Part shown: one piece after another, positions 7,462-21,791 of the stretch | Layout: each line of letters opens with the position of its first letter | Position numbering within the stretch: the stretch's first letter is position 1 | Source: a virus | DNA length: 21,791 nucleotides | Virus record (IMG/VR): IMGVR_UViG_3300017737_000098 | Coordinates: 1 to 21,791 of that record | Strand: one strand, 5' to 3' | Translations under genes and position numbers: made by a program | Notes under the pieces: generated by a model | What the model saw: the letters and a program-made list of their open reading frames with translations, nothing else | Databases searched by the model: none | What the model was told of the DNA's origin: nothing

Positions 7462-9257
7462 TATGCTGCCTGCAGTGCTGCTAGTACGGCTGCTTTTAAC
7501 TTAGGATCTGCTGTGATAGTAGCCACTAGTGGTTTTACTTTTGTACTTGGTTGTGCTGCTGCTTTAGGTGCTGATTTGTCAATGCTCTTAATTGCTTTTT
7601 GATCAACAGCAAATACTGCATTACCAATTTTCAATTGAATCTGAGCATCGCCATCAGCATCTTTTGTGTCTAGCATAGCATTTACCACAGCCTGTTTGTC
7701 TTCACCTTTGGCATTTGTATAAGTGACTGTGTCACCTACCTGTGCAGTGCCTTTTGCTACTGCTGGCTTTGCATTTGGATCTGCATCAGCCTTTGCACCT
7801 GCATCTGCATCAGCGGTTTTTTCATCTTTGCTTCCTGCAGTTGGTGCATCTAAACCAGAAGTTTTAAATGCTGCATTAATAACTGCTTCATCGATGCCCA
7901 AATCTAATAACACTTGTAGCACTCCCACACTGTCTGTTGGTTTACCTGCTTTTTCCCAAGCAGCCATCATTTTTTTGGCAGTGTACTTTTGAGTAAACTC
8001 TGTGCCAATCTCTGCGCCTTTTTCCACTGCTTTGCTCATTGCAGCACCAATTGCACCTTTTATGGCATCAAATGGGCCTTCGTCAAGTCTTTTGCTGTAG
8101 GCAAAATCTACAGCAAAAACAATATTTCTAACTTGACTTTCTGTCAAAGGCCAAGCATAATCACCTGCTGCTGATTCGCCCATTGCTCTAGAAATTGCTC
8201 CGTCAATAAGTTTTAATGATTGATTTGCCATGCCCGGTTCCATCATCATTGTAAATGTCTTTGGATGTATCGCTGTTTCTATACCAGCGTCAACTAAATC
8301 TTGTAATGCCTGACGTTGCTGGCTGGCTACCTTCGTAGCAAATGCTTTAACTACACTGTCTAGTTCTTGGCCAGTCAATCCTTTTTCTATTTGTGCTTTT
8401 GCATAAGTTTCTACAGCAGTTCCAAAAGTTTTACCCAATGCTTTACCATCAGTAGCACCAGTCGCCGCAGCATCATAAACAATCTCAAGGAAGTTGTCGC
8501 CTTTTCCAATATAACTTGGATTAGCCAATAGGGTTTGTGCTTGATCATAATCATATTTGATAGTGTATCCACTTGCATTAATACTGGTACCAACCTCTCC
8601 CTTTAACAGATCTGCTTTTAAATCGGGTGCTGCTGCTGCATCTCCGCCGCCTTTGATTAAGTCACCCAGTTTACTTGCACCATATGCCATAACACCAGTT
8701 TTACCAGCACTGTATATTGCACTGCGAATGTCCTTGCCTTGGATCATTTGATCAACAAGTTTGAATAATGCCAGTGCGGCTGCACCTCCTACACCTGCGC
8801 CAGTTATGCCTGCTGCAGCAATCAATGCACCGTACAGTGCACCTTGTATGATAGGATGCTCTTCTGCAAAATCTCTATACTTTTGTACAATCTTCATGAC
8901 TGTGCCGTCGTCGCCGCCTAGTTTGTCTTTTAATTCTCCTGCGGCTTTATCATACTTGCCTGCAAACTGCTCCAATGGACCACTGTTGTATATTTTACTC
9001 TTAAGATCTTTCCAAGCATTGTTTACTGCCACTGCAGTGTCTTTGGCTTTGCCTATGCCTGTTCTGTTTACACCTGCATCATTGGCTGCACCTTGTAGAT
9101 TTGTAAACAATTGTGTGATTTGATCTCCAGTTAATTCTGCTTCTTTGATTGCGCGTCCGGCATTTTCCCATAATAGAGCCGATTGTTTGTTACTGGTATC
9201 TAAACTTTCATACAGTTTTGTATAACGTATACTAGGATATGTTTCTGTTATTTTCAT
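7461..9257 (-). CDS. Large head-region protein with membrane-active segment and two capsid-leader sites
   Basis: This 598-aa protein starts MKITETYPSIRYTKLYESLD, with LYE|S at residues 15-18 fitting T4 prohead-protease cleavage. Residues 136-167 and about 180-199 are hydrophobic and Gly/Ala-rich, a likely membrane-inserting region (HPIIQGALYGALIAAAG and onward). At 390-394 RLDEG provides a second (I/L)-x-E|G site, followed by PFDAIKGAIGAAMSKAVEKG and a helical domain to about 465. A low-complexity Ala/Asp/Lys linker then leads to a beta-type domain at 507-561 nearly identical to one in the next gene, then an Ala-rich tail. The start overlaps the upstream gene (ATGA). An ejected internal protein acting at the host membrane is plausible but unproven. 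Confidence 0.85.
   Translation of the reverse strand: MKITETYPSIRYTKLYESLDTSNKQSALLWENAGRAIKEAELTGDQITQLFTNLQGAANDAGVNRTGIGKAKDTAVAVNNAWKDLKSKIYNSGPLEQFAGKYDKAAGELKDKLGGDDGTVMKIVQKYRDFAEEHPIIQGALYGALIAAAGITGAGVGGAAALALFKLVDQMIQGKDIRSAIYSAGKTGVMAYGASKLGDLIKGGGDAAAAPDLKADLLKGEVGTSINASGYTIKYDYDQAQTLLANPSYIGKGDNFLEIVYDAAATGATDGKALGKTFGTAVETYAKAQIEKGLTGQELDSVVKAFATKVASQQRQALQDLVDAGIETAIHPKTFTMMMEPGMANQSLKLIDGAISRAMGESAAGDYAWPLTESQVRNIVFAVDFAYSKRLDEGPFDAIKGAIGAAMSKAVEKGAEIGTEFTQKYTAKKMMAAWEKAGKPTDSVGVLQVLLDLGIDEAVINAAFKTSGLDAPTAGSKDEKTADADAGAKADADPNAKPAVAKGTAQVGDTVTYTNAKGEDKQAVVNAMLDTKDADGDAQIQLKIGNAVFAVDQKAIKSIDKSAPKAAAQPSTKVKPLVATITADPKLKAAVLAALQAA
7575..7739 (-). repeat. Duplicated 55-residue domain, copy 1
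   Basis: This stretch codes for residues 507-561 of the 598-aa protein, from VGDTVTYTNAKGEDKQAVVN to KSIDK. By direct comparison 47 of 55 residues match the copy in the adjacent 256-aa protein. The DNA is more diverged, mostly at third codon positions, so the copying is old or the protein is under selection. The VGDTVTY start suggests a KOW/SH3-like barrel. Confidence 0.85.
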
Positions 9258-10329: not shown

Positions 10330-11061
10330 ATGTCAATACAAGATAATCCTGGCGGCCACTTCGCTGAATTGGCTCGCATTGCATACATGACACAAAAAGA
10401 AAGCAAGCCCATTGCCAAAAAGATGGGCTACACAAAAACAAAACTCATAGATCACAAGGGTGCAGAGTGCTTATTTTTAGAAAATGATCACACAATTGTG
10501 TTGGCATTTCGTGGCACAGAGCCCAAAGAGTTCAGTGATATCAAAGCAGATCTTAAGGCATGGAAGCGCAAAAGTGAAACTTGGGGCATGGTGCATGCAG
10601 GTTTTTACGAATATCTTGAGCGTATTTGGGAAAGTGTACTAAATCACATCAACTATGGCGACAGAGAAACAAAAAGCCTTTACATCTGTGGACACAGTCT
10701 GGGTGGTGCAATGGCAACACTAGCAGCCAGTAGACTGCAAGATCGTGTTGTGGCATGCTACACATATGGTTCACCACGTGCTGGCGGTCGTATTTGGAAC
10801 AGCAAATGTACATTTGAACATCACAGATATGTGAACAACAATGATGTTGTGCCACGTGTTCCGTTCTGGATCATGGGTTTTAGGCACTATGGTGAATTAC
10901 ACTACATCAATCATTATGGTAATATTCGCAAACTCACACCATGGCAGAAGTGCAAAGATCAATGGCGTGGACGATGGAGAGCATGGCAAAAACGCGAGTT
11001 CTTTGATGGTGCTAGAGATCACAGCATGGATTTGTACAGCAAAAAAATCAATAAAAATTGA
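10330..11061 (+). CDS. Class 3 (alpha/beta-hydrolase) lipase
   Basis: This 243-aa enzyme of the fungal-lipase-like class 3 family should hydrolyse acyl esters of glycerolipids. GHSLGGAMATLAASRL (residues 121-136) is the nucleophile elbow with Ser123. VNNNDVVPRVP (168-178) supplies Asp172, and ARDHSMDLY (228-236) supplies His231, completing the triad. IVLAFRGTEP (56-65) is the usual oxyanion-side strand. There is no signal peptide, so it probably acts in the cytoplasm or is released at lysis. It is transcribed divergently from the structural block and precedes the polymerase gene by 107 bases. Lipid turnover during infection, or envelope damage at lysis, are the likely roles. The family call is firm, the role is inference. 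Confidence 0.9.
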   Translation: MSIQDNPGGHFAELARIAYMTQKESKPIAKKMGYTKTKLIDHKGAECLFLENDHTIVLAFRGTEPKEFSDIKADLKAWKRKSETWGMVHAGFYEYLERIWESVLNHINYGDRETKSLYICGHSLGGAMATLAASRLQDRVVACYTYGSPRAGGRIWNSKCTFEHHRYVNNNDVVPRVPFWIMGFRHYGELHYINHYGNIRKLTPWQKCKDQWRGRWRAWQKREFFDGARDHSMDLYSKKINKN

Positions 11062-11168: not shown

Positions 11169-12866
11169 ATGAAGTTACCAAACGATGCAGAGGCACAACT
11201 AAATCGATTACTAGGCGCATTTATAAGGCAAATACCAGAGGCACCAGAATATCGAAATAGACTAGTAGAAGAATGTGAGATTATTCTCCGACTTCGCTTT
11301 GTCGATTACTTCCTAACAATTTGCAATGTACTGACGCTAACCGCGGACATTCCCCATATGACCAGAGGTTCAGCAGGGTCAAGTCTTGTGTGTTACCTTT
11401 TAGGTATCACTGATGTAGATCCCATAAGATGGCAAATACCGGTTGCACGTTTCCTAAATCCTTTGAGGGATGATTTGCCAGATGTGGACATAGACTTTCC
11501 GCATTGGCAACAGGATACTGTGATGCAAAGAGTATTTGCGAAATGGCCTGGTCGCAGTGCAAGAATCAGTAACTATGTGCTATACAAGGAGCGCAGTGCT
11601 CGCAGAGAAGCAGCACGCCGTCTTGGCGCATCTGGCAAACTCCCTCGCAATTTTAAGTATGAAGATTATGACATCGATAAGGAAGAGGCAATGAGACTCG
11701 AAAAGAAACTATTAGGCAAAAAAAGATCAATAAGCAAACACTGTGGTGGCATTGTGATATTAAAGCACAAACTACCAAAAAGTCTAATCAACCAAGACAA
11801 TCAGTTGATGCTGGACAAAAGAGAAGTAGAAGATTTAGAACACTTAAAAATAGACATATTGGCCAACAGAGGACTATCACAACTGTTGGAAATAGACAGC
11901 GACACACCACTGGAAGCATATCCAGAACAAGATTTTGAAACATCACAACTGCTGTGCAGAGGTGATGTGTTGGGCGTAACGCAGGCTGAGTCCCCGGCCA
12001 TGCGACGCCTGTTCCAAGCAATACAACCACAATCAAAAAGTGACTGTGTGTTTGCCACAGCACTGATACGCCCTGTGGCCACAACAGGCAGACAAAAGGC
12101 AGCATTTTTCCAAGACTGGACAGAGCAGGCACTGGAAGATACCATAGTGTATGAGGATGATGCCATACGCAAGATAGCAAACTTGATTGGTTGTGACATG
12201 TATGAAGCAGATATGTATCGTCGTGCATTTGCAAAGCGTGACGAAGAACGTGTGATGGAGTTTATGGGGAGAATGGGAGAGTGTGAGGACAAAGAGCAGA
12301 TTATCCAAGAACTGTATGGTTTGGGTAACTTTGGATTGTGTAGAGCACATGCTGTGAATCTTGGAAGGCTGATTTGGGCATTAGCATATCAAAAAGCACA
12401 CAATCCAAAGCAGTTCTGGCGTGCAGCACTCAAACACTGTGTGGGATCATACAGACGTTGGGTACACAAAACAGAAGCAAAGAATGTGGGCTGGGATCTG
12501 CGTGACTTGGGTTATGAGAATGGCATTGTCAGCACACCACAAGCACAGTATCGCAAACATGGTTATTGGACACAGCCTGAATTTATGCCTGGCATGTTCA
12601 TACAAGAAACATGGGGTGATAGAGTAAACTTTGCAGGACTCATAGCCAATGGTAGAACATTCCGCGGCGAAAGTGGACGCTATGTTACATTTGTTACTGC
12701 AGGCATTGCCAATGGTGAGTATGTGGACATCACTGTAAAACGTCCGTTTTCACACAAGGATCATGATGTTATTGTGGGCAGTGGTAAGATACGCATGAGC
12801 AATGGTGCACGTTACATTGAATGTTATGATGCACAAGGACATAGACTAGAGCGTTATCTTGACTAA
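11169..12866 (+). CDS. Compact C-family (DnaE-type) DNA polymerase without PHP domain
   Basis: This 565-aa protein matches the bacterial replicative polymerase III alpha core. RGSAGSSLVCYLLGITDVDP (66-85) followed by FLNPLRDDLPDVDIDF (95-110) is the palm signature, with D107 and D109 as catalytic acids. KHCGGIVI (190-197) follows, and HLKIDILANRGL (225-236) gives the third acid, D229. VTQAESPAMRRLFQAIQP (270-287) and LGNFGLCRAHAVNLGRLIW (385-403) are finger-domain motifs. A short OB-fold-like part (FAGLIANGRTFRGESGRYVTF, about 488-508) ends it. The N-terminal PHP domain is missing, the clamp-binding region is reduced, and no proofreading exonuclease is present. E. coli DnaE is about 1160 aa. 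Replicates phage DNA, most likely with the helicase and primase here. Confidence 0.9.
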   Translation: MKLPNDAEAQLNRLLGAFIRQIPEAPEYRNRLVEECEIILRLRFVDYFLTICNVLTLTADIPHMTRGSAGSSLVCYLLGITDVDPIRWQIPVARFLNPLRDDLPDVDIDFPHWQQDTVMQRVFAKWPGRSARISNYVLYKERSARREAARRLGASGKLPRNFKYEDYDIDKEEAMRLEKKLLGKKRSISKHCGGIVILKHKLPKSLINQDNQLMLDKREVEDLEHLKIDILANRGLSQLLEIDSDTPLEAYPEQDFETSQLLCRGDVLGVTQAESPAMRRLFQAIQPQSKSDCVFATALIRPVATTGRQKAAFFQDWTEQALEDTIVYEDDAIRKIANLIGCDMYEADMYRRAFAKRDEERVMEFMGRMGECEDKEQIIQELYGLGNFGLCRAHAVNLGRLIWALAYQKAHNPKQFWRAALKHCVGSYRRWVHKTEAKNVGWDLRDLGYENGIVSTPQAQYRKHGYWTQPEFMPGMFIQETWGDRVNFAGLIANGRTFRGESGRYVTFVTAGIANGEYVDITVKRPFSHKDHDVIVGSGKIRMSNGARYIECYDAQGHRLERYLD

Positions 12867-17031: not shown

Positions 17032-17412
17032 TCAACACGCTACTTGTATGTACCATATGGGAAAATCTTTTTTATCAGGCAAGTGTATGTATCTTTTTTC
17101 TCTATCAAATCCAAAGTAAGGATCAAAAATACTATTGTGAAAATGCAAATTTTCTAATGTAATGTATTGTAATCTCAACTGCACTATCCTAACGTGCTTG
17201 TCATGCTGTATATGCCCTTGTTCTATTGTGGTATCTCTTTCATTGTCTTTGCCAAACATCATAAATTCTATACTTTGACCATAATTGTATTCAAATTCAA
17301 AAGTATGTTTTCCTTCCGCAAGTGTATTGGGTTTGATGCACAGGCTATTGATCACAAAACCAGCAGTGCCATTGCATTCTCCAAAGTATAGGTCAACACA
17401 CGCCTTAGGCAT
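17032..17412 (-). CDS. Small beta-sandwich-like protein B
   Basis: This 126-aa protein starts MPKACVDLYFGECNGTAGFV, overlapping the radical SAM stop by 8 bases. Strand-like segments (HTFEFEYNYGQSIEFMMFGK, HVRIVQLRLQYITLENLHFH) alternate hydrophobic and polar residues, suggesting a beta sandwich. The end is aromatic (FDPYFGFDREKRYIHLP, then FPIWYIQVAC). It resembles protein A at 15189-15593 in strand pattern and length, but identity is low and the link is tentative. No catalytic motif or signal peptide is seen. Its tight coupling to the radical SAM gene suggests it works with that enzyme, perhaps binding a carbohydrate or peptide substrate; this is inference. Confidence 0.75.
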   Translation of the reverse strand: MPKACVDLYFGECNGTAGFVINSLCIKPNTLAEGKHTFEFEYNYGQSIEFMMFGKDNERDTTIEQGHIQHDKHVRIVQLRLQYITLENLHFHNSIFDPYFGFDREKRYIHLPDKKDFPIWYIQVAC

Positions 17413-18775
17413 ATTGCTGTTCTTCTAAATTATGAATCAGTGTTTGTTGTTCTTCATTTTTAGGAACAACATATCCCAAACTGACACAATGATCAATCAG
17501 TTCTCTTCGCCATTGCAATCTTTGATCCAGTGTGCTCAACCCAATCCAATCGTTTTCACGCTTGCCAAGAGTGACTCCAAGTTCTTGACTCATTTTTTCC
17601 AATGGTGTGCCAGGAAGGATGGCCAGTGTTGTTCCAATGGCAATGCCAGTTATGGTGTTGGGTGCATACTTGCTTAATCGTTCATACATGATCTTATTTT
17701 CTTGTATTGTGCTTTCATCATCTGTGATATATCCCACAATCATGAGAAAGGTTCCTGTGATTCCATATTTTTGCATGCAGTGTACGCCATAAATTATATC
17801 TTCATTGCTAAACTTCTTTTGCATATGATCTCTCACACTTTCACTGAGATTTTCTATGCCAATTGCCACATGTGTTAGCCCAGCATCAGCACTCAGTTTC
17901 CATGTCTCTTCTGACATTTGATTTTTTGGCCTAAAGATAAATTGCCCTTCCCAAGTGATTTTATTTTTTGCAGTACAATTATATTCTGCCAGTGCAGCGC
18001 ACATTTCTTTGTAGGCTTTCATACTGCCGTTGATTAAACTGTCTGTAAACAAAAAATGATAAAGATTGTGTTTTTGACTTTGTAACATCATTTCATTTGC
18101 AATACTTTTGCCACTTCTAAAAACAAACTTTTTCCAATGCACATGTATATCACAAAATGTGCAACGTCTTACACATCCTCTGCTGCCTGTGATAGGTATT
18201 TGTTTATGGTACAAACTCAAGTCGTAACTGCTGTAGTCAGGTATTGGAAATTCATCTAGATTTTCAATTTGCGTCCATTCTTTTTTATCGTCGTGGTCAC
18301 CTCTTACTATGTCTACAATAGGCCACTCGCCTTCACTCACCACCCAATGATCACATAATTCTTGGTCTTTCCATTGTTCTCCAAGATTTTTTCCTTGCAA
18401 TCCTCCAGTGTTTAATCCAGGACCGCCCAGTATTATTTTGGTGTTGGGACTCATTGTTCTAATGTATACACACAACAGTTTGGTCATTCTTTGACATTGA
18501 TAACTAAAAATGCTCAATCCAATGTATTTAGGTTCAAATGAAAGCATTTTGCGCACATGCATTTGTATTGTAGCATCAAATTCCGACGCATCCTCAGGAG
18601 TTGTTTCAGCAATTGCATATCTTTTAAAATTTTCATCATCTTTGACATAGTGATTAAAATCATAAAATTTACCTGTGTGTCCGTGTTGTTGTAGCATGCT
18701 GATTAGTATCGCTGGAGCGGCTGGCGCAGTGTTTGTAAAAGTCACAGGCACACTAACAAACAATACATCTACCAT
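17405..18775 (-). CDS. Radical SAM enzyme, B12-binding-type architecture
   Basis: In this 456-aa protein, GSRGCVRRCTFCDIH (197-211) holds the CxxxCxxC motif (C201, C205, C208) that binds the 4Fe-4S cluster and S-adenosylmethionine. The N-terminal 180 residues look like the Rossmann-type cobalamin-binding domain usual in such enzymes (LFVSVPV, APAAPAILISMLQQHGHTG, IGLSIF, KIILGGPG). The DxHxxG cobalamin-ligating motif is not present, so cobalamin may bind weakly or not at all. Later segments (FTDSLINGS, VAIGIENLSESVRDHM, GTFLMIVGY) fit the radical SAM barrel. It overlaps primase upstream and the beta protein downstream. Methylation or another radical modification is likely; the substrate is unknown. 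Confidence 0.88.
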   Translation of the reverse strand: MVDVLFVSVPVTFTNTAPAAPAILISMLQQHGHTGKFYDFNHYVKDDENFKRYAIAETTPEDASEFDATIQMHVRKMLSFEPKYIGLSIFSYQCQRMTKLLCVYIRTMSPNTKIILGGPGLNTGGLQGKNLGEQWKDQELCDHWVVSEGEWPIVDIVRGDHDDKKEWTQIENLDEFPIPDYSSYDLSLYHKQIPITGSRGCVRRCTFCDIHVHWKKFVFRSGKSIANEMMLQSQKHNLYHFLFTDSLINGSMKAYKEMCAALAEYNCTAKNKITWEGQFIFRPKNQMSEETWKLSADAGLTHVAIGIENLSESVRDHMQKKFSNEDIIYGVHCMQKYGITGTFLMIVGYITDDESTIQENKIMYERLSKYAPNTITGIAIGTTLAILPGTPLEKMSQELGVTLGKRENDWIGLSTLDQRLQWRRELIDHCVSLGYVVPKNEEQQTLIHNLEEQQYA

Positions 18776-19731
18776 TTTTTTCTCATCAGATTAATTTTTA
18801 AACTGGTTGTTTGCTTTGCATCAACAATACTCTTAAGTGCGAACAGTTTTCCATAACGCACAACTGCATCATTGACATCTTTTACATCTGTTTCCCACTC
18901 AGGAAAACTAACACTCCATCCATACTCCAGTGCATCATCGATGAGCCGTTGTCCTGCACTGTCTCTGTCTGGTACCAGTATTACTTCTCTGCCCAGTGTG
19001 TCAATGATCTGTGCCTGTTGCTCACTGCACTGATTGCTCATTATGGCCACACCGCTGATGCACATTGCATCCAGTAATCCTTCTGCAACTACTACAAACC
19101 TAGCATCAGGCAACTGATTATCAATCCCATAAACGTAGCCACTATCATGATTAGTAAAGTATTTGGGTCTTCCGGCATTGTCTGTACTCCTTGCACTAAA
19201 ACCTATCACTTCGTTGTTCCAAGTAAAAGGCACAATTATACGTTTCCACATGCCTGCTGGTTTGCTGTTGCTCCACAATAATTTTTCCAACGGTAAACAC
19301 CTGTTCTCAGCATACTGTTGTATGTGTTTGGGTGCATCATCAAGTGTAACAACTCCGTCTGGCAATGGTCTTGGTTTGAACTCTACAACAATAGCATCTT
19401 CATCAGGTGTGAGAAGTTCAACTGTTTCTTTGATGCGCAGTGCTTCAATGTTGAGCATCTGTCGTGTGTTCTCATCTACACCCAACCATGTTAGTATTTT
19501 GCGCAACTTGAAACTGATGTGTCTGCCCGGTTGCCATCCTGTTTTGAATCCACAGTTAAAGCAGTGATAACTCACAGCATCGCCATTCATTATCACACCA
19601 CCTCTGCCGCGTTTGTCAACGGATTCACCATTGTGATGACAGCAAACAGCATTGAATGAAATCCATCCACCACTGCTTTGTTTGCGTTTACCAGGCAACG
19701 CATCAAACACACTTTGTTGTATACTGTTCAT
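18769..19731 (-). CDS. DNA primase, DnaG/T4 gp61-like
   Basis: This 320-aa primase has an N-terminal zinc ribbon (C30, H33 from AVCCHHNGES, and C57, C60 from SYHCFNCGF). The Toprim catalytic core carries VVVAEGLLDAM (213-223) with Glu217 and ILVPDRDSAGQ (251-261) with Asp255 and Asp257. TDVKDVNDAV (281-290) is a further conserved segment. The length is similar to T4 gp61 (about 340 aa) and shorter than bacterial DnaG. It makes RNA primers for lagging-strand synthesis and should pair with the gp41-like helicase in the same operon. Its start overlaps the SGNH gene stop (ATGA) and its stop overlaps the radical SAM start. Confidence 0.93.
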   Translation of the reverse strand: MNSIQQSVFDALPGKRKQSSGGWISFNAVCCHHNGESVDKRGRGGVIMNGDAVSYHCFNCGFKTGWQPGRHISFKLRKILTWLGVDENTRQMLNIEALRIKETVELLTPDEDAIVVEFKPRPLPDGVVTLDDAPKHIQQYAENRCLPLEKLLWSNSKPAGMWKRIIVPFTWNNEVIGFSARSTDNAGRPKYFTNHDSGYVYGIDNQLPDARFVVVAEGLLDAMCISGVAIMSNQCSEQQAQIIDTLGREVILVPDRDSAGQRLIDDALEYGWSVSFPEWETDVKDVNDAVVRYGKLFALKSIVDAKQTTSLKINLMRKKW

Positions 19732-20288
19732 GTGTGTATTATAGCATCTAATTGTGTTTTGATCAACTGAAAAATACGCTCATGCCCAGCATCATTTGGA
19801 TGCAAGTGATCAGCAATGTACTTTTGTCTATCCGGCATCAGCACATCTATCATGTGTGGCACACAATGCACATGCATGTATCTTAGGCCTTGTAGATTGC
19901 AAGCATTTTCAACAATTGACTTGGGATACCAATCATGTACATCTTCAATGTATGCACTGAGTTGATTGCTTACATAATCTACAACACTGTGTGTCAGCGC
20001 ACTGCCGCGTTTCTTTTGCTGTATGTAATTGAGATGTTCCCAACGTGCAGTGTGAGTGTTGTACCAACTGTTGCGATTGGGATGACTCCATCCAAACAGC
20101 ACCACATCATCTGTTTGTATTTGATGTTGTGTTTCACAAAAGTGTAGTGCTATCCATGGATTGCTGGCACTGCTGTCACTGTGTTGCACAAAGTCATAAC
20201 CATAGTGGTCAGCGGCAATACGTCCATAACAGGTCTTGGCTTCTTCTCCTAGACTGACACTACAACCATATTGATGTATTGCGGGCAT
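19728..20288 (-). CDS. SGNH/GDSL-hydrolase-like protein, 186 aa
   Basis: YGCSVSLGEE (7-16) supplies the block I serine S10. DSSASNPWIA (38-47) holds a candidate Asn43 (block III type). IADHLHPNDAGHERI near the C-terminus contains a D-x-x-H pair (D then H in DHLH) as in block V. This fits SGNH esterase/acetylhydrolase folds, which are about 180-230 aa. No signal peptide is present, so it is probably cytoplasmic. It follows a second SGNH-like gene through a one-base TAATG overlap and precedes primase. The substrate could be a sugar O-acetyl or another ester; this is not visible from sequence. Confidence 0.75.
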   Translation of the reverse strand: MPAIHQYGCSVSLGEEAKTCYGRIAADHYGYDFVQHSDSSASNPWIALHFCETQHQIQTDDVVLFGWSHPNRNSWYNTHTARWEHLNYIQQKKRGSALTHSVVDYVSNQLSAYIEDVHDWYPKSIVENACNLQGLRYMHVHCVPHMIDVLMPDRQKYIADHLHPNDAGHERIFQLIKTQLDAIIHT

Positions 20289-20962
20289 TAGAATCTATCC
20301 ACGCAGTATCCATCATACCAGTGTTCATCTGCTGTCCATCTACCATTGCGCACTCGTTTGTCTATGGCAGCAAACTGTAATCTTGTTTGTCCATCAACTG
20401 GCAGTTCTGGCAATACCTCATCCAAATAGTCTATGTGTTGTTGAGGAGTAGGATGATAGTCGCTGTCAAATGCAGCATTGTGCCAATCACCTTTGTATAT
20501 CACAGTGTGTACACTGGGTTTTATTGAGCCAAGTACACCATAAGTTTGTAGTATGATATCGCACTGACTCTTTACTTGTGTATCGCTTGTGTCTAAATCA
20601 ATCATACTGAGAAAATAATACTCACAAGTTGTGCTGTTCAATGCCATTTGTGCTGCTTGTATGTTTGCACAATCTCTGATGATACTGCCTTTGACATCGA
20701 CCAGTTGTGCTCCGACTGTTTGCCAACCATCCTCATAATGATCTTGTCTGTCACAACTTGTCCACATCACTATGACTGTGTCATTGTGGTTTATATCATG
20801 TCTGGCATGTGCTTCTGCAATGCTCCACAATATAAAACTATTACCTGCACCGCCCTCTGCAAAGTTGTAGTGCTGATCAAATTGAGGTGCTAGGGCATCA
20901 GCCCAGGTAGGCCACTTATAGCGTGTGAAACTACAACCAAATGTAAACAATCTTTTTTGCAT
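20288..20962 (-). CDS. SGNH/GDSL-hydrolase-like protein, 224 aa
   Basis: I place the start at the ATG at 20962 (MQKRLFTFGCSFTRYKWPTW) rather than the TTG at 20980, because family members start close to the first strand. No strong ribosome site is seen for either. GCS (S11) is block I. AEGGAGNSFILW (35-46) gives glycine/Asn41 of blocks II-III. VIVMWTS (64-70) is a core strand, and DSDYHPTPQQHIDYL holds the terminal Asp/His pair in D-x-H spacing. I recall similar proteins in marine phages. It is the first gene of the replication operon after the terminator at 20987. An esterase or acyl-transferring role on cell-surface or sugar substrates is likely. Confidence 0.78.
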   Translation of the reverse strand: MQKRLFTFGCSFTRYKWPTWADALAPQFDQHYNFAEGGAGNSFILWSIAEAHARHDINHNDTVIVMWTSCDRQDHYEDGWQTVGAQLVDVKGSIIRDCANIQAAQMALNSTTCEYYFLSMIDLDTSDTQVKSQCDIILQTYGVLGSIKPSVHTVIYKGDWHNAAFDSDYHPTPQQHIDYLDEVLPELPVDGQTRLQFAAIDKRVRNGRWTADEHWYDGYCVDRF

Positions 20963-20986
20963 ACTATTAGTTATGCTCAAAAAATA

Positions 20987-21007
20987 AAGCAGGAATAGAT
21001 CCTGCTT
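20987..21007 (-). terminator. Intrinsic terminator after pseudoazurin gene
   Basis: AAGCAGGA (20987-20994) pairs perfectly with TCCTGCTT (21000-21007) around a 5-base loop. On the minus strand the hairpin is followed by a T-rich run (ATTTTTT). It lies 50 bases downstream of the pseudoazurin stop and separates that unit from the SGNH/replication operon. Confidence 0.85.
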
Positions 21008-21056
21008 GTATTTTTAACTTAGTCTGTCATTTTCTTCTTTGGTGTAAGGCCACATT

Positions 21057-21479
21057 TTATAGTTTCTCAAGTAATTTTTTAAGTTTCTTTTTGCTTTTGC
21101 CCAGTGCTTTTGCTTTGGCAACAACATCTTTGTTGCTGGTATCATCACCAACAACCACAAGTCCAATCATGCCCATGCCTTTGTGTGGTGTACACCAATA
21201 GTAGTACACACCTGGTATATCAAATGTGATTGCAACTTCTTTGCCGTTCTTTGACTTTTTCGGAATATCAAAGCCTTCTGGTGCTGCAACAATTTCTACA
21301 TTGTGACCTTTACTGGTTGGTACCCACGTGATGGTATCACCTGCTGCAACTCTTGCAATCTCTTGTGAGTATACCATTTTGTTGCCATCAGCATCTTTGT
21401 TCAACATTTCAATTGTGGTTGCATTTGCAGTTGTGGCAGCAAACAGCATTGTGATTGCTATTGTTAGATTTTTGAACAT
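21057..21479 (-). CDS. Pseudoazurin (blue copper protein), exported
   Basis: This 140-aa protein has a signal peptide (MFKNLTIAITMLFAATTANA, cleaved after about residue 20). The mature part is a cupredoxin with type 1 copper ligands H59 (SKGHNVE), C96, H99 and M104 (YYYWCTPHKGMGM). The Cys-x2-His-x4-Met spacing and the C-terminal Lys-rich helices (VAKAKALGKSKKKLKKLLEKL) match pseudoazurins rather than plastocyanins. It would carry single electrons in the periplasm, classically to nitrite or nitrous-oxide reductase or cytochrome peroxidase. AGGGA precedes the ATG by about 8 bases, and a terminator follows. As a phage gene it is an auxiliary metabolic gene. Host origin is likely, but I see no sharp composition change. 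Confidence 0.93.
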   Translation of the reverse strand: MFKNLTIAITMLFAATTANATTIEMLNKDADGNKMVYSQEIARVAAGDTITWVPTSKGHNVEIVAAPEGFDIPKKSKNGKEVAITFDIPGVYYYWCTPHKGMGMIGLVVVGDDTSNKDVVAKAKALGKSKKKLKKLLEKL

Positions 21480-21541
21480 TTATTTTCCCTTTGTTTTTCG
21501 TTGAGTTTCTGGTTTTCTAAAATATGTATGATCGGGATCTA

Positions 21542-21712
21542 TCATCGCTGTATAAATCCGTTTACTTCTGCATTCAAACGCTTCTCGAGTTCTGCAACTG
21601 TGTAACTTGCTTCACGGTACTTTAATGGTTGTCCCATTGGTGTTCCAGGCCATCCGCCAGTCTTTGCGTCACTAAAACGCATGCTAAAAATATTCTTTAG
21701 TATTTTAGTCAT
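21542..21712 (-). CDS. Short conserved phage protein, 56 aa
   Basis: Translating the minus strand from the ATG at 21712 gives 56 residues from MTKILKNIFSMRFSDAKTGG to a TGA at 21542. Features are WPGTPMGQPLKYREASYTVAE (split as residues 21-41) and a helical end LEKRLNAEVNGFIQR. The start overlaps the 3' end of the preceding partial gene by 8 bases, the coupling style seen across the window. The gene is 62 bases upstream of pseudoazurin and may share its transcript. I recall comparable short proteins in marine T4-like phages; function unknown. Confidence 0.7.
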   Translation of the reverse strand: MTKILKNIFSMRFSDAKTGGWPGTPMGQPLKYREASYTVAELEKRLNAEVNGFIQR

Positions 21713-21791
21713 TTTTGTTCTCCATCATTACGTTTTTTGCTTGTTCGTAATAACCCATTTGGGCTAGTGCGCTTGCTGCTTTTGCTCTGCC
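21705..21791 (-). CDS. 3' end of a phage gene, cut by window edge
   Basis: The minus strand is open from the window edge to a TAA at 21705, giving the last 28 residues: GRAKAASALAQMGYYEQAKN followed by VMMENKND. The segment is helical (ALAQMGYYEQAK looks like the end of a helical repeat). It overlaps the next start by 8 bases. Too little remains to assign a family. Confidence 0.55.
   Translation of the reverse strand, partial: GRAKAASALAQMGYYEQAKNVMMENKND

Follow-up and report, generated by a model that had tools for sequence, protein, structure and literature searches.

A Pseudoazurin Gene in a Viral Genome Fragment

The window (the whole stretch of 21,791 nucleotides that was analyzed, an IMG/VR virus record) contains at positions 21057–21479 (stop codon included) a gene that encodes pseudoazurin, one of the small copper proteins that carry electrons outside the bacterial cell membrane. 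The initial annotation had these coordinates right; the reading frame runs on the minus strand, from the ATG at 21479 to the TAA at 21057, and encodes a preprotein of 140 amino acids whose mature part starts at about residue 21. The protein is matched by the Pfam Copper-bind family (E = 1e-17) and by the NCBIfam pseudoazurin model TIGR02375 (E = 2.2e-31, 108.0 bits, with the equivalog cut-off of 109.85 just above), and TIGR02375 matches all 37 aligned members (E ≤ 0.001, best E = 2.4e-34). Other cupredoxin models score far lower (halocyanin 47.6, plastocyanin 44.4, and amicyanin 36.9 bits), and on these NCBIfam scores an identity as plastocyanin (PetE, TIGR02656, cut-off 87.85), amicyanin, or halocyanin was rejected. 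The top match in a PDB sequence search is the pseudoazurin 3tu6 (E = 2.9e-25).

The four type-1 copper ligands (H59, C96, H99, and M104) are present with the C-x2-H-x4-M spacing of pseudoazurins, as had been claimed for this gene. An AlphaFold2 model (mean pLDDT 91, 37 aligned rows as input) displays the cupredoxin strands and two C-terminal helices (residues 117–121 and 128–139), and the first 27 matches of a PDB fold search with this model are all pseudoazurins (TM to target 0.86–0.90). A search of the viral fold library BFVD ranked a giant-virus blue copper protein first and a cyanophage plastocyanin fourth; the name pseudoazurin is absent among the 50 matches listed. Overall, the reading frame, profile, ligand, and structure evidence confirm that 21479–21057 is a real gene for an intact, putatively exported pseudoazurin.

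The gene was said to have its own ribosome site and an export signal, and both stand as features recognized by eye: a Shine–Dalgarno-like site (AAAGGGAA, 21485–21492, minus strand) lies 5 nt 5' of the ATG, and the N-terminus resembles a signal peptide (...TTANA/T). One base past the pseudoazurin stop codon starts a micro-ORF of 13 codons (MWPYTKEENDRLS, 21014–21055, minus strand) that belongs to a microprotein family of viral contigs. The pseudoazurin/micro-ORF unit is closed by an intrinsic-terminator-like hairpin (20987–21007, minus strand; eight pairs followed by a T run), which bears out the terminator noted earlier: it was found by a terminator scan (2 sites vs. 1.0 ± 0.8 in shuffled sequences) and the region folds more stably than shuffled sequence (z = −2.38). 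A promoter scan returned nothing above chance. Upstream lies an ORF of 56 amino acids (21542–21712, minus strand) and downstream an ORF of 230 amino acids (20288–20980, minus strand) that by eye resembles SGNH hydrolases and had no match in the Pfam and PHROG searches.

Phage Context of the Gene

The window encodes a DnaB-type helicase, a primase, a DnaE-type polymerase, and a DUF6267 protein, the last of a type that marine phages, cyanophages among them, commonly carry. The nearest relative of the helicase is found in the jumbo phage PA5oct (50%) and that of the polymerase in a 484-kb uncultured phage (38%), so the window is probably a fragment of a large phage. The polymerase (11169–12863), matched solely by NTPase and finger domain models, and a class 3 lipase (10330–11058) are encoded on the plus strand, the rest of the window being otherwise on the minus strand. 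A radical SAM protein with B12-binding-type relatives (17408–18775, minus strand) matches PhpK-type P-methyltransferases and others far below the cut-offs, and homologues are present in some contigs of helicase relatives. A tRNA search for host assignment found none.

A contig from another IMG/VR metagenome record (L002) encodes an identical pseudoazurin protein and shares with the window 98.3% DNA identity over 20959–21791 and 99.1% over 19601–20288. The upstream ORF is conserved next to the pseudoazurin gene in L002 and the downstream ORF is absent from it (around 8420–8520), marking an insertion or deletion right beside the pseudoazurin gene. L002 reaches almost 8 kb further upstream, through phage-like genes; within this continuation of the window's phage, genes resembling a ClpP protease and a nucleotidyltransferase were recognized by eye (L002 263–829). 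An assembly chimera or bacterial contamination at 20963–21541, the doubt raised by the initial annotation, would fit the small number of genes common to the window and the other pseudoazurin contigs; it is refuted by L002, an independent contig in which the gene has the same phage DNA on either side with 98–99% identity, unless one artefact is common to both assemblies, and is regarded as extremely improbable. Among 80 loci of helicase relatives (taken from at least 600 helicase matches) none contained a pseudoazurin within the DNA fetched, so the gene looks accessory within the window's own phage group.

Distribution and Selection among Viruses

A tblastn search of IMG/VR yielded 116 pseudoazurin relatives, of which the best 80 were kept (61–100% identity over the best segment, 58 distinct proteins). 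All 58 distinct proteins from these 80 loci retain the four copper ligands, whose loss in related phages had been named as a test of the initial reading, and a basic GKSKK motif close to the C-terminus is likewise common to all 58. Of the 80 contigs, 52 carry one or more T4-type replication gene families and 29 carry two or more, and PHROG annotation of representatives identified a polymerase, a clamp, both clamp-loader parts, a translation repressor, and an SbcCD-like pair, among others. A recurrent gene order on the T4-like contigs is regA-(membrane protein)-Hsp20-pseudoazurin-lysozyme-polymerase, and the polymerase of one contig (L005) is nearest to that of phage C48C1 (52%). Hsp20 is found in 27 contigs (the family was named by Pfam from one member), and other neighbors are Na/Pi cotransporter, BMP-type binding protein, aldolase, Fe-S scaffold, oxygenase, and DoxX-like genes. 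Judged by gene content, the carriers are T4-like phages and the different phage group of the window. Values of dN/dS between 0.035 and 0.17 in the 13 of 15 viral pairs for which the ratio was computable (dS was saturated in the other two) point clearly to purifying selection.

Among 50,697 GenBank phage records, 214 matched, each of them under the name Synechococcus phage or cyanophage and none reaching 60% identity; the 20 matches listed are annotated as PetE or plastocyanin, and no cupredoxins other than those of cyanophages were found in this set. A small gene judged by eye to encode a membrane protein (no Pfam match) lies near the pseudoazurin gene in three SAR116 genomes (L093 7427–7717, L094 7130–7408, and L092 8740–9138) and in 22 viral contigs (e.g., L026 5880–6239), with up to 70% identity; it is possibly a trace of joint transfer.

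The micro-ORF lies within about 1 kb of the pseudoazurin gene in 55 of the 80 viral loci and directly behind it in 32, with a TAATG or TGATG stop/start junction in 29 of these 32 (one extra regular-expression match, in L075, was unlike the family and was excluded). The family peptide reads MWPYT(E/D/K)EE(N/A)D... and has 13–30 residues. A DNA-pattern search added two further viral pseudoazurin loci with the micro-ORF. Third-position changes among 47 distinct DNA copies are largely synonymous, which indicates that the micro-ORF is very probably coding. A viral scan for the pattern found at least 120 loci (L242–L361, including a few contigs already in the pseudoazurin set), 119 of which have a frame no longer than 40 codons, and the genes in front of them are diverse. 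A special tie between micro-ORF and pseudoazurin was rejected, as only 8 of these 120 pattern loci contain a pseudoazurin within the DNA fetched. The micro-ORF was found in none of the 136 SAR116-order genomes, the eight cultured phages tried, or the 80 loci of helicase relatives.

Bacterial Relatives

A scan of bacterial genomes identified 22 loci, mostly in SAR116 single cells and metagenome-assembled genomes (MAGs) with a few in Rhodobacteraceae; two of the loci within MAGs (L099 and L102) lie on contigs that are phage-like judging from gene layout. The SAR116 pseudoazurins are mostly 60–80% identical over the best segment. By sequence comparison the closest bacterial genes are those of SAR116 and a few Rhodobacteraceae, which narrows the host donor sought by the initial annotation to the marine alphaproteobacteria and no further. 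The viral profile was matched in 63 of 136 SAR116-order genomes, 18 of 32 genomes of a small-genome order, 75 of 248 genomes of the Ascidiaceihabitans family (only two of them with E < 1e-60), and 44 of 289 genomes in a class-level sample.

Five SAR116 loci (L086–L090) carry the gene order soxY-soxZ-soxC-soxD-like-pseudoazurin-soxB. In L087, the NCBIfam models for SoxZ, SoxC, and SoxB score over their cut-offs and SoxY reaches 124.1 against a cut-off of 125; the soxD-like label of the gene preceding the pseudoazurin is based on its position and a heme motif. The order of L087 is kept by homologues in the other four loci, and a phmmer search with its Sox genes, conducted within the loci then compared, gave matches among the bacterial loci only. 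Two copies of an older type (L116 and L117) are followed by soxY, soxZ, and soxC homologues. Most of the bacterial copies examined do not adjoin sox genes.

SoxB was over its cut-off in 52 of the 136 SAR116-order genomes and occurred together with pseudoazurin in 32 (24 expected; Fisher's exact test, p = 0.008, with kinship ignored). It was missing at this cut-off in 31 of the 63 pseudoazurin-bearing genomes and present in 8 of the 12 genomes whose pseudoazurin closely resembles the viral type. None of the 48 viral records tried (out of 80) gave a match to SoxZ (PF08770), in a search in which the control genomes also gave no match. NirK over its cut-off was found in none of the 136 SAR116-order genomes, the same search being positive in 1 of 14 control genomes.

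Phylogenetic Analysis

The pseudoazurin alignment comprises 145 columns and therefore offers limited resolution. The first tree omitted a fragment (L067), viral duplicates of identical sequence, and 16 rows from bacteria, most of which repeated loci that were already included; the distant L160 and L161 were also among these 16. The rows of an enlarged tree were thinned at 90% identity (143 to 111) and 13 were then removed, one a fragment and the others long or distant branches, including L100, L103, and L133. The MAG contigs L099 and L102 were treated as cellular in the first tree and, judging from their gene layout, as viral in the enlarged one.

A marine subfamily that unites the viral and bacterial copies is separated from the classical pseudoazurins with a support of 100/100, and SAR116 and the small-genome order each form their own clade. 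Two Ascidiaceihabitans-type copies (Rhodobacteraceae) are nested among the viral rows in the enlarged tree (100/93), and the first tree places the pair with two viral rows (100/97). These two copies are located on contigs with ordinary bacterial genes, and their nesting among viral rows suggests a transfer of the pseudoazurin gene from phage to bacterium into a branch of the Rhodobacteraceae. Strict paraphyly of the viral copies was dropped: SAR116 falls inside the viruses in the first tree and the backbone lacks resolution with more bacterial rows. A single viral clade was not rejected by an AU test (p = 0.25), and constraining the viruses and the Ascidiaceihabitans pair together gave a tree 6.8 log units above the free tree (p = 0.59), both groups having been named after the tree was seen. 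The viral copies may therefore stem from an old lineage common to the viruses, more probably than from numerous recent acquisitions.

Proposed Role of the Viral Pseudoazurin

Its presence on many viral contigs, its host-type homologues, and the selection acting on it support the proposal of the initial annotation that this phage-encoded pseudoazurin is fit to be an auxiliary metabolic gene. The best explanation, to which we assign a probability of roughly 0.6, is that the viral pseudoazurin serves aerobic respiration as an electron shuttle in the periplasm. The phage would make the type-1 copper protein during infection and export it to the host periplasm, where it would add to or replace the host's pool of small electron carriers. 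Electrons would pass from periplasmic donors (either the bc1 complex or a dehydrogenase, with the Sox thiosulfate-oxidizing system as one example) through pseudoazurin to terminal oxidases, and respiration might thereby be sustained as an energy source while host proteins decay. We infer, in this reading, that the phage protein is expressed, takes up copper, is exported, and meets an electron partner. Weighing against the explanation are the many bacterial copies away from sox genes, the viral records tried that gave no SoxZ match, the pseudoazurin-bearing SAR116-order genomes with no SoxB over its cut-off, and the accessory character of the gene in the window's own phage group. The sox linkage in some close bacterial relatives makes the Sox pathway a candidate partner and the best one that can be named, a tentative choice.

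An abundant type-1 copper protein would bind copper, and some phage neighbors are of a stress type, such as the Hsp20 gene mentioned above; copper buffering or protection against oxidants could then be the primary function and redox shuttling secondary. This is considered unlikely given that the close bacterial relatives with informative neighbors sit in an electron-donating sox operon and that no copper-resistance gene was recognized adjoining the phage copies, whose neighbors are partly annotated. The initial annotation had named denitrification or peroxide defence as examples and imagined low-oxygen water; no observation made here pointed to peroxide defence or to low oxygen. As a denitrification helper, the phage protein would pass electrons to the enzyme that reduces nitrite or nitrous oxide in a denitrifying host, and pseudoazurins and other cupredoxins are best known as donors in that pathway according to a passage of PMC12423496. 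The SAR116 order speaks against such a helper, which appears very unlikely: the lack of NirK over its cut-off in all 136 genomes argues against NirK-type denitrification there, which was rejected, and the same genomes hold pseudoazurin in 63 and SoxB in 52 cases, with five loci inside a sox operon. Finally, the sporadic occurrence in the window's own phage group would suit a passenger gene acquired by chance from a host and retained without benefit, an idea that the low dN/dS values, the ligands invariant across the 58 distinct proteins, and the recurrence of the gene in several phage gene arrangements render highly improbable.

The electron-shuttle reading can be extended to a joint scenario in which at least two unrelated groups of marine phages use one old viral pseudoazurin lineage to boost thiosulfate-driven (lithotrophic) respiration in alphaproteobacteria, the gene having passed back from phages into bacteria on one or more occasions (Rhodobacteraceae) and its product often being made together with a virus-specific microprotein of 13–20 residues whose start overlaps or abuts the pseudoazurin stop. 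That all of these parts hold together seems rather doubtful.

Comparison with Known Systems

Until now, the copper electron carriers known from phages were those that cyanophages carry for photosynthesis. Cyanophage plastocyanin (PetE, phrog_515) is likewise a phage-encoded type-1 copper electron carrier and is most likely the functional parallel of the window protein; it belongs to another cupredoxin family (31–39% identity in the 20 matches listed), and no photosynthetic context was seen. With bacterial pseudoazurins (TIGR02375; PDB 3tu6, 1bqk, and 1paz) the window protein shares the predicted fold, the C-x2-H-x4-M motif with an upstream histidine, the C-terminal helices, and the signal-peptide-like start. 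It differs from them in being phage encoded, in its 37–43% identity to the solved structures in the fold search, in small indels in the His-Cys loop, and in the GKSKK C-terminal segment, which is strongly conserved in the viral proteins. The closest well-sampled bacterial relative of the viral protein, the pseudoazurin in the sox operons of SAR116 (Puniceispirillales), has a shorter loop (SPN-MK-KSKNGK type vs. the viral GPDG-PKKSKN type) and no micro-ORF behind it.

Auxiliary soxYZ, soxC, and soxD genes of phages are described in passages of Kieft et al. (2021, PMC8190135). The viral pseudoazurin would serve the same thiosulfate-oxidizing electron pathway if Sox is its partner; in the pseudoazurin contigs tested, no sox gene was seen, with a weak control. 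A search of the open PMC literature by title and abstract found no phage-encoded pseudoazurin, and nothing was found there on a phage cupredoxin as an auxiliary metabolic gene or on a SAR116 pseudoazurin. The string "azurin" is unmatched in the main text of PMC11360552, PMC8190135, and PMC5628999, and the passages checked for azurin together with auxiliary metabolic genes deal in turn with a dye used as substrate, with resazurin, and with a thaumarchaeal integrated element that carries a PetE-type gene.

The pseudoazurin-carrying phages probably infect heterotrophic ocean bacteria. As a small and easily expressed protein, pseudoazurin lends itself to asking whether infecting phages sustain the respiration of their hosts. 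If the electron-shuttle reading is true, phage copper carriers would extend from photosynthesis to ordinary respiration, possibly including sulfur oxidation, in very abundant marine bacteria, and infection may let phages adjust respiration in ocean bacteria, in a way comparable to the use that cyanophages make of plastocyanin.
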